IMG/VR virus record: IMGVR_UViG_3300032050_000028
Coordinates: 1 to 64,000 of that record
DNA length: 64,000 nt
DNA from: a virus
Reading direction: 5' to 3' (one strand)
The notes below the pieces were generated by a model. That model was not told where the DNA came from and made no database searches. It saw only the letters and a list, made by a program, of their open reading frames with translations. Numbering within the stretch: the first letter of the stretch is position 1; every line of letters starts with the position of its first letter. This document shows, piece after piece, positions 17,647-21,222 of the stretch. The translations under genes and the position numbers were made by a program.

Positions 17647-17675
17647 AAAAAAGACCTCTAAATGAGGTCTTTTTT
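17647..17675 (+). terminator. Rho-independent terminator after capsid gene
   Basis: A 12-bp stem, AAAAAAGACCTC/GAGGTCTTTTTT, with a five-base loop and a T tract, starts 21 bases after the capsid stop codon. Confidence 0.85.
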
Positions 17676-17681
17676 GTTTTA

Positions 17682-17697
17682 TATAAATAATATATAT
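17682..17697 (+). promoter_or_regulatory. Late promoter region: TATAAATA plus TAATATATAT
   Basis: An exact T4 late-promoter octamer (TATAAATA, 17682-17689) overlaps a copy of the window's own motif (17688-17697), which ends three bases before the ATG at 17701. Confidence 0.5.
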
Positions 17698-17700
17698 GTA

Positions 17701-18084
17701 ATGAAATATTTGAAATATTTTGAAAGTAAAAAGCCTAAATTCCCAGATATCAAAAAGATTGAAGTTGATGGTTTTTTTCTACAATATGGAAGAGATGCTA
17801 AATCAAATGACTATTTAACTTTTAATGTTGCTGAGGATGAAGATATTTGGATGCACGTTAAAGGTGTTCCTGGTTCTCATGTTGTTATAAGAGTTAGAGA
17901 AAACTTACCTACACCTGAAATATTAAAATATGCCGCTGAAATTGCTAAAAAGAATTCAAAAGCAGCTAAAGAACCTTCTGTCAAAGTGGTTTATTGTCAA
18001 AGAAAGTTTGTCAAAAAAGAACCTGGTATGAATGATGGTCAAGTTAAAGTTGATTATATAAATGCGGAAGAAATCACTATTTAA
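17701..18084 (+). CDS. Stand-alone NFACT-R (RqcH/NEMF-type) RNA-binding domain protein
   Basis: A 127-residue protein made almost entirely of an NFACT-R domain (DUF814). Diagnostic residues are GFFLQYGRDAKSNDYLTF (24-41), D-I-W-M-H-V-K-G-V-P-G-S-H-V-V-I (48-63), and a C-terminal PGMNDGQVKVDY (108-119). In RqcH/NEMF this domain contacts ribosome-bound tRNA and nascent-chain complexes during ribosome-associated quality control; the other RqcH domains are absent here. The first nine residues, MKYLKYFES, are the recurring capsid-targeting-like leader. An upstream in-frame ATG at 17662 lies inside the terminator hairpin, so 17701 is the better start. It could help rescue stalled ribosomes or simply bind RNA. 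Confidence 0.85.
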   Translation: MKYLKYFESKKPKFPDIKKIEVDGFFLQYGRDAKSNDYLTFNVAEDEDIWMHVKGVPGSHVVIRVRENLPTPEILKYAAEIAKKNSKAAKEPSVKVVYCQRKFVKKEPGMNDGQVKVDYINAEEITI

Positions 18085-20239: not shown

Positions 20240-20254
20240 TTATATATACATTTG
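20240..20254 (+). promoter_or_regulatory. tmRNA promoter: TTATATATAC plus TACATTTG
   Basis: A late-type TATATATA box (20240-20249) overlaps a perfect Bacteroidetes -7 box TAnnTTTG (TACATTTG, 20247-20254). Transcription from the latter would start near 20261, about 15 bases before the mature tmRNA 5' end, which RNase P would then form. Confidence 0.5.
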
Positions 20255-20275: not shown

Positions 20276-20649
20276 GGGGATGTCATAGAATAGATTCATA
20301 GAGTAGTGGTAGTTATGCAGGTGTCGGGTGGTTAAATGACCGACTAATAAATTAGGTAACAAAAGTCGTAAATGGCAAAACAAATGAAGTAGCATCCCGT
20401 GAAGATTTAGTAGCGGCGTTACAAAACAACATGCTTAAGGCAGAAGAGCTAGCAGTAGTTTAAGCTTTTAAGCTAATCGCAAAAATTCTCCAGCTGAATC
20501 ACACAGTTTAAAATGTGAAACCAGAATTGTTAGAGTGATGGGTTAGTTCAACTAAATATTTTGTGAGTTTAGAAAAATTTCACTAAGCCTGTAAATGAAT
20601 AATTATTGTTAGCTAGGGAAGACACCGGAGGCAGAGCCGGTCATCTCCA
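20276..20649 (+). ncRNA. ssrA: Transfer-messenger RNA (tmRNA) with 29-codon tag frame
   Basis: A phage tmRNA, which rescues stalled ribosomes and appends a degradation tag. The 5' GGGGATG (20276-20282) pairs with 3' CATCTCC (20642-20648), giving a 7-bp acceptor stem that keeps the G3-U70 pair required for alanylation. A pseudoknot-like GTCGG...CCGAC region precedes the tag frame. The likely resume codon is GGC at 20374, with UA at -5/-4 as in other tmRNAs. The tag runs in frame to TAA at 20461-20463: 29 residues beginning GKTNEVAS and ending KAEELAVV, against about 9-11 in most bacteria. Oddities: the T-arm (ACCGG/CCGGT) has an eight-base loop without TTCRA, and the encoded 3' end is ACTA instead of ACCA. 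Confidence 0.9.
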
Positions 20650-20658
20650 CTAAAATTA

Positions 20659-20682
20659 AGTCCGCCTAAGGTGGACTTTTTT
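20659..20682 (+). terminator. Rho-independent terminator after tmRNA
   Basis: Stem AGTCCGCC/GGTGGACT (one G-U pair) with a three-base loop and a T run, ten bases after the tmRNA 3' end. Confidence 0.85.
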
Positions 20683-20703
20683 AATTTATAACATATAAGA
20701 ATT

Positions 20704-21222
20704 ATGAGTTATATCAATTCTTTTAGAGGTCGTTATTATTTCCTTTCAAACTTTTATCCCTGTAAAATTGAACATAAAGGAATTACATATCCTTCTGTAG
20801 AACACTATTATGTTGCTCTAAAAGTTACTCAAATGCAATTCATTGATGGTGTTTATTATACTGCTCCTGATTTTAGAGAGTTAATTGCTAGAATACCAGA
20901 TGCTGGTGATGTAAAAAAATTAGGAAGTCGAGTAAAAGTTAGACAAGATTGGGAAGAAAAAAAATTAGACTTTATGAATTGGGGAATTCGTGAAAAATTC
21001 AAAGATCCTAAATTATGCGAGATGTTATTGGATACTGGTAAATTAGAACTTATAGAGGGTAACTTTTGGCACGATGTCTTTTGGGGTCAGTGTTCTTGTC
21101 CAAAATGTAATAGTATTGGTGAAAATCATTTAGGTAAAATTTTAATGAAGATTAGAGAAGAATTAAGACAACAAAATGAAAGACCTTCACTAGAAGAACA
21201 AATTAAAAATCAAAATAAATAA
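20704..21222 (+). CDS. NADAR-domain protein (YbiA-like)
   Basis: A 172-residue protein covering a complete NADAR domain: FRGRYYFLSNFYPC (8-21), the PSVEHYYVALK active-site region (~31-41), WGIREKF, and the C-terminal FWHDVFWGQCSCPKCNSIGENHLGKILMKIR (~118-150). NADAR proteins are N-glycosidases; some are reported to remove ADP-ribose from guanine and so act as antitoxins to DarT-type enzymes. In a phage this could counter an ADP-ribosylating defence or recycle NAD-derived metabolites. A short Cys pair (CSCPKC) is inserted before the conserved G-E-N-H-L-G. It is one base upstream of the Dam gene, suggesting cotranscription. Confidence 0.85.
   Translation: MSYINSFRGRYYFLSNFYPCKIEHKGITYPSVEHYYVALKVTQMQFIDGVYYTAPDFRELIARIPDAGDVKKLGSRVKVRQDWEEKKLDFMNWGIREKFKDPKLCEMLLDTGKLELIEGNFWHDVFWGQCSCPKCNSIGENHLGKILMKIREELRQQNERPSLEEQIKNQNK

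Follow-up and report, generated by a model that had tools for sequence, protein, structure and literature searches.

A divergent tmRNA family of huge phages with long tags lacking a terminal Ala-Ala

Judged by comparison with its relatives, the segment at positions 20276–20649 of the window (the whole 64,000-nt stretch of viral DNA analysed, positions 1 to 64,000 of IMG/VR record IMGVR_UViG_3300032050_000028) is an intact phage tmRNA that is under selection and has kept its alanine identity. It belongs to a tmRNA family overlooked by standard finders. An initial annotation, made from the sequence of the window, had proposed a phage tmRNA with exactly these boundaries, and a match to the Rfam tmRNA model RF00023, homologues and covariation all agree with it. 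The host of the huge virus carrying this gene is probably a member of the Bacteroidota. The phage is of the same kind, the Mahaphage clade, as genomes described earlier, and Bacteroidetes hosts were predicted for genomes >634 kb (Al-Shayeb et al. 2020, PMC7162821).

Detection and structure of the tmRNA

ARAGORN calls no tmRNA at the window locus, and Rfam gives no match there at its gathering threshold of 47 bits, which is a library setting and not a biological feature. A local cmscan run aligns the locus to RF00023 across the full model with 26.8 bits (E 5.1e-9), compared to 105–200 bits for Bacteroidota tmRNAs. The folding energy of the single sequence is uninformative (z -0.7), so the reality of the tmRNA has to be decided by comparative evidence. 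Full-length homologues with 75% and 72% nucleotide identity were found by blastn in the 635-kb genome LR745206 and the 642-kb genome LR756502, with no further relative of comparable coverage among 50,697 phage records. Pattern scans of IMG/VR recovered 17, 57 and 65 contigs in overlapping sets, about 70 viral contigs in all. Matches to the tag core that had no matching T-arm likewise proved to be tmRNAs, and their tag is of the same type. One Bacteroidota chromosome carries a second, divergent tmRNA (L150:562-973, 49 bits, tag GENNYALAA) beside the normal one, and this too is missed by ARAGORN.

The covariation alignment comprised 36 distinct copies of the family. Standard pairs fill 98.0% of the 994 pair cells of the named structure, compared to 83.9% in shuffles, and slid versions of the structure are only 28–54% paired. 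Double changes occur at 19 pairs, with 136 compensatory cells; each of these levels was reached by 0 of 500 shuffles. Such pairing shows that the tRNA-like domain is not degenerate, a possibility that the initial annotation had allowed for. The G3–U70 pair, noticed at the outset, lies in the acceptor stem of the window (Table 1) and is present in 36 of 36 aligned copies after register correction of two rows. The features of RF00023 found here are the alanine-type G3–U70 acceptor, PK1 5' of the resume codon and an internal tag frame with an in-frame stop; those lacking are a score above the gathering cut-off and the 7-nt TTCRA T-loop, the latter being usual but not strictly defining.

Table 1 Positions of the tmRNA gene, its parts and neighboring elements in the window
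Feature	Position	Strand	Evidence
One-piece tmRNA (ssrA-like) gene, 374 nt to discriminator base	20276–20649	+	RF00023 match, full-length homologues, covariation
Acceptor stem 5' strand GGGGATG (G1 = 20276)	20276–20282	+	Partner strand 20642–20648
Acceptor stem 3' strand CATCTCC with discriminator A (20649)	20642–20649	+	Sequence, covariation
PK1 stem 1, GTCGG 20323–20327 x CCGAC 20340–20344	20323–20344	+	100% of cells paired, compensatory changes
PK1 stem 2, GTT 20331–20333 x AAC 20358–20360	20331–20360	+	100% paired, double changes at 3/3 pairs
Tag reading frame, 29 codons + TAA, GKTNEVASREDLVAALQNNMLKAEELAVV	20374–20463	+	Frame intact in every complete copy of the family
Hairpin A inside tag frame, CCGT 20397–20400 x GCGG 20413–20416, loop GAAGATTTAGTA = E-D-L-V codons	20397–20416	+	
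Hairpin B inside tag frame, GCTT 20433–20436 x GAGC 20446–20449	20433–20449	+	
Probable pseudoknot 3' of stop codon, CTG/CAG with TCACA/TGTGA	20494–20518	+	Sequence
T-arm, ACCGG, 8-nt loop AGGCAGAG, CCGGT	20624–20641	+	Compensatory changes at 5/5 pairs
Promoter -7-like element TACATTTG, Bacteroidota type (TAnnTTTG), 21 nt 5' of G1	20247–20254	+	Sequence
Terminator-like hairpin AAGTCC...GGACTT, then T-run	20658–20683	+	Sequence
Stand-alone NFACT-R domain protein, ~2.3 kb 5' of tmRNA	17662–18084	+	PF05670, E 1.4e-14

The 3' end is encoded as ACTA, as first read: the discriminator A is followed directly by genomic CTA. Since CCA is absent from the gene, it must be added. The TAnnTTTG element recurs 10–26 nt 5' of G1 in most members of the family, and the probable pseudoknot after the stop codon is mostly conserved among relatives, as judged by eye and from partial counts. 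Immediately 3' of the tmRNA lies a gene for a NADAR-domain protein (window 20704–21222).

The T-loop is altered, in agreement with the initial annotation. The 8-nt loop of the window, which its species carries, has no TTCRA, and its ACCGG/CCGGT stem covaries throughout. Most of the family has GGGCAGTAC, or a six-pair stem with the loop GGCAGTA; one branch has TTCGTTA, AGCGAAA or AGCGATA, and TTCG persists in a few members. The phage SmpB probably either copes with the altered loop or is matched to it. Compared to Bacteroidota proteins, phage SmpB has an R to K change at one otherwise conserved site (RKLLLH), and this single site is too little for a claim of co-adaptation between SmpB and the T-loop.

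The tag peptide and its constraints

The tag runs from GGC 20374 to TAA 20461 and ends in ELAVV; an Ala without a codon, supplied by the charged RNA, would stand before its first encoded residue. The resume context TAAAY/GGC is common to the window tmRNA and many Bacteroidota tmRNAs, which supports GGC 20374 as the resume codon. An earlier in-frame start at GTA 20368 may be used instead. Bacteroidota tmRNAs are a fair comparison because of the predicted hosts (PMC7162821) and the similar resume context. In 46 of 46 of them the tag has 9–10 residues and ends in LAA or MAA, and the T-loop contains TTCRA in all. The 29-residue tag is thus three times the usual length and lacks LAA, as had been noted from the window.

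Throughout the family the tags are 27–30 residues long, with the frame intact in every complete copy. They share the core (E/Q)V(G/A)(T/S)xEDLVxxL, usually followed by QNN; in members L010 and L198 the second half of the tag differs from the rest of the family. No family tag has a terminal Ala-Ala as in the LAA-type canonical ssrA degron, and the endings include AVV, ATV, AVA, SLV, EVA, QFA and VEA. Terminal Ala-Ala is the main ClpXP recognition element (PMC7652416), so host ClpX recognition of the ELAVV tag is likely different, as initially surmised. Such varied C-termini are nevertheless odd for a strict degron and count against a model in which the phage tags proteins for degradation.

Values of pN/pS rise from 0.24 in EDLVAALQNN to 0.5 in the wider core and 0.78 in the tail, and the codon-position bias in the tag frame is modest. 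A good deal of the tag owes its form to RNA hairpins, which the initial annotation overlooked. Compensatory changes are seen at 4/4 pairs of hairpin A (95.8% paired) and at 3/4 pairs of hairpin B (96.5% paired) in the 36-copy alignment, and the linked residue changes TR..AA to SN..FA are compensatory base changes of these hairpins. Conservation of the tag therefore partly reflects RNA structure, which rules out protein-level selection as the sole cause of core conservation. Taken with the pN/pS gradient, the covarying hairpins indicate mixed constraints on peptide and RNA. A search for tag-like peptides elsewhere in LR745206 and the window's contig gave nothing above a weak background score. 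In bacterial genomes the tag core has only three matches, all in an ABC-transporter-like reading frame and not in tmRNAs, and they were discarded.

Partner genes and unfoldases in huge phages

The two complete relatives, LR745206 and LR756502, each combine the tmRNA with SmpB, an unfoldase with a ClpP loop and ClpP in one genome. SmpB is encoded by one gene in each (E 1e-49 to 1e-53) with a GKKLxDKR tail, and ClpP by two and three genes, respectively. The unfoldase is a ClpC-like Hsp100 protein of 701/707 amino acids with both AAA modules, UVR, D2-small and a GVGF loop for ClpP docking, and no Clp_N. The third ClpP-like gene of LR756502 (L218:9437-10003) lies ~2.6 kb 5' of smpB. Lon was rejected as a reader of the tag, as no Lon_C was found in the six records searched. 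The window's own 122-kb contig shows neither SmpB nor ClpP; since it is a fragment, this absence is uninformative, but the link to partners stays indirect for the window.

A stand-alone NFACT-R protein is encoded ~2.3 kb 5' of the tmRNA in LR745206 and LR756502 as in the window; of 12 related records, 11 have it. Among phage records, it occurs at 65–72% identity only in these two relatives. Its nearest solved structure by sequence is B. subtilis RqcH. That NFACT-R shares a process with the tmRNA is a guess. The NFACT-R gene adjoins the major capsid gene.

Seven huge phages were compared for tag and unfoldase. Lak-C1 and Lak-B5 have the tags DDEIDFRMAA and DDEIEFRMAA and a phage ClpX. LR756504 has a 24-residue tag ending in AVAA, with a ClpX lacking the zinc finger and a ClpC-like protein. 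The 29-residue tags of LR745206 and LR756502, ending in ATV and AVA, occur with a ClpC-like protein only. LR756508 has a 36-residue tag ending in AAV and a ClpC-like protein, and LR756501 has a 33-residue tag ending in VLA and a ClpB-like protein with an N-domain and without a ClpP loop. Short MAA tags are thus found with phage ClpX, and tags of 24–36 residues with Hsp100 unfoldases. From this pattern, tag and unfoldase seem to change in step among huge phages; the seven genomes represent about five lineages, which is not enough for statistics. No phage ClpP was found in LR756501 or LR756508 at E 1e-15, and LR756508 is missing from the records with SmpB, so the full set is documented only for LR745206, LR756502, LR756504 and the Lak phages. 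The ClpB-like protein without a ClpP loop in LR756501 the ClpP not found in these two phages and the SmpB missing for LR756508 count against the tag-and-degrade model.

Some of these loci have further peculiarities. The phage ClpX frame of Lak-C1 (L280) contains a large intein-looking insertion. For LR756508 (L256), ARAGORN gives the tag GRRKPLSW, compared to the 36-residue tag ending in PAAV from the frame after TAACT/GGC. In LR756501 (L266, 735 kb) the 3' part of the tmRNA is flanked directly by a group I intron (RF00028, 96 bits), a placement that resembles bacterial T-loop introns.

Function of the tag and relation to known systems

We consider it slightly more probable than the alternatives combined, on genomic evidence, that this is a working tmRNA with a partly private pathway of trans-translation and degradation, whose tag is read mainly by the phage ClpC-like protein and ClpP. 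Host AlaRS would charge the phage tmRNA, which would then bind phage SmpB and enter stalled host ribosomes during infection, adding Ala and the 29-residue tag and freeing the ribosome. The later steps are less sure: host ClpXP may handle a tag without a terminal Ala-Ala poorly, and the main reader of the tag may be the ClpC-like unfoldase that lacks the N-domain, leading to degradation with ClpP. The wider proposal is more tentative and, in our estimate, falls somewhat short of an even chance: huge phages of Bacteroidota would run orthogonal trans-translation and proteolysis, with host ClpXP a poor and phage ClpC-ClpP a good reader, and tag and unfoldase would co-evolve.

Alternatively, the chief benefit of a functional tmRNA could be ribosome release, the tag having drifted in length and ending under the dominance of the RNA hairpins, and tagged proteins being slowly cleared by host ClpXP, Lon and FtsH. 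The in-frame hairpins do account for the linked residue changes, the tails vary with the high pN/pS given above, and small hydrophobic residues still end the family tags; an AAV ending is a slower, not a dead, ClpXP degron (PMC9382460). We nevertheless regard this explanation as rather unlikely, given the invariable LAA or MAA of host-type tmRNAs, the low pN/pS of the tag core, and the unfoldase and ClpP that the complete relatives encode themselves. The initial annotation suggested that the tag could stabilise, redirect or label nascent proteins. Loss of the main ClpXP element (PMC7652416) and the long conserved core would suit such a role, but neither a binding partner nor a targeting signal was identified, and no similar peptide occurs elsewhere in the phage sequences searched. 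SmpB, the Hsp100 with its ClpP-docking loop and ClpP in LR745206 and LR756502 point instead to a machine, encoded in part by the phage, that degrades the tagged proteins, which leaves the suggestion unsupported and, in our view, improbable. The odd T-loop would also fit a degenerate RNA or a decoy, acting by titration of SmpB or by blocking trans-translation in the host; a precedent is the RNA of mycobacteriophage DS6A, which consists of a tRNA-like domain only and is reported to be a tmRNA inhibitor (PMC4131195). This reading is very improbable, since covariation shows that the mRNA-like domain is conserved in full, along with the pseudoknots and the tag frame, and the complete relatives have their own SmpB. 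Chance resemblance or an assembly artefact, to which the ARAGORN miss and the low Rfam score might point, is refuted by the covarying structure on ~70 contigs and deserves practically no credence.

The RNA resembles the one-piece tmRNA of Bacteroidota type (RF00023) in G3–U70, PK1, the TAAAY/GGC context, the internal tag frame and the 3' pseudoknots, and differs from it in a tag of 27–30 instead of 9–10 codons, the absence of a terminal Ala-Ala, a T-loop without TTCRA and hairpins within the tag frame. Both tmRNAs and SmpB were already known in huge phages, but the tmRNAs were called there with ARAGORN, which misses the present family, and the main text of that study is silent on tags and Clp proteins (Al-Shayeb et al. 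2020, PMC7162821). Other phage-encoded tmRNAs have been reported in Bacillus phage G, mycobacteriophages and DS6A (PMC4131195), in the OM43 phage Melnitz (PMC9004378), and in Sinorhizobium phage AP-J-162, where the tmRNA occurs alongside Clp genes, as in the complete relatives (PMC11242549). The available parts of these reports describe neither a long tag of this kind nor a relation between tag and unfoldase for any of these phages. The closest earlier example of a change of protease is Mesoplasma florum, whose long tag without LAA is tied to that change and usable as an orthogonal degron (PMC9382460). That bacterium has no active ClpXP and its tag is read by Lon, whereas here the candidate reader is the ClpC-like protein with ClpP. 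We found no report of the present tmRNA family, its tags or the tag–unfoldase relation in the openly accessible literature searched.

The ssrA tags of huge phages span 10 to 36 residues, and the type of tag is linked to the phage's own unfoldase. They form a natural, testable set of tag–protease pairs, which is useful for studying the reasons for ribosome rescue in giant phages and as a source of orthogonal degrons.
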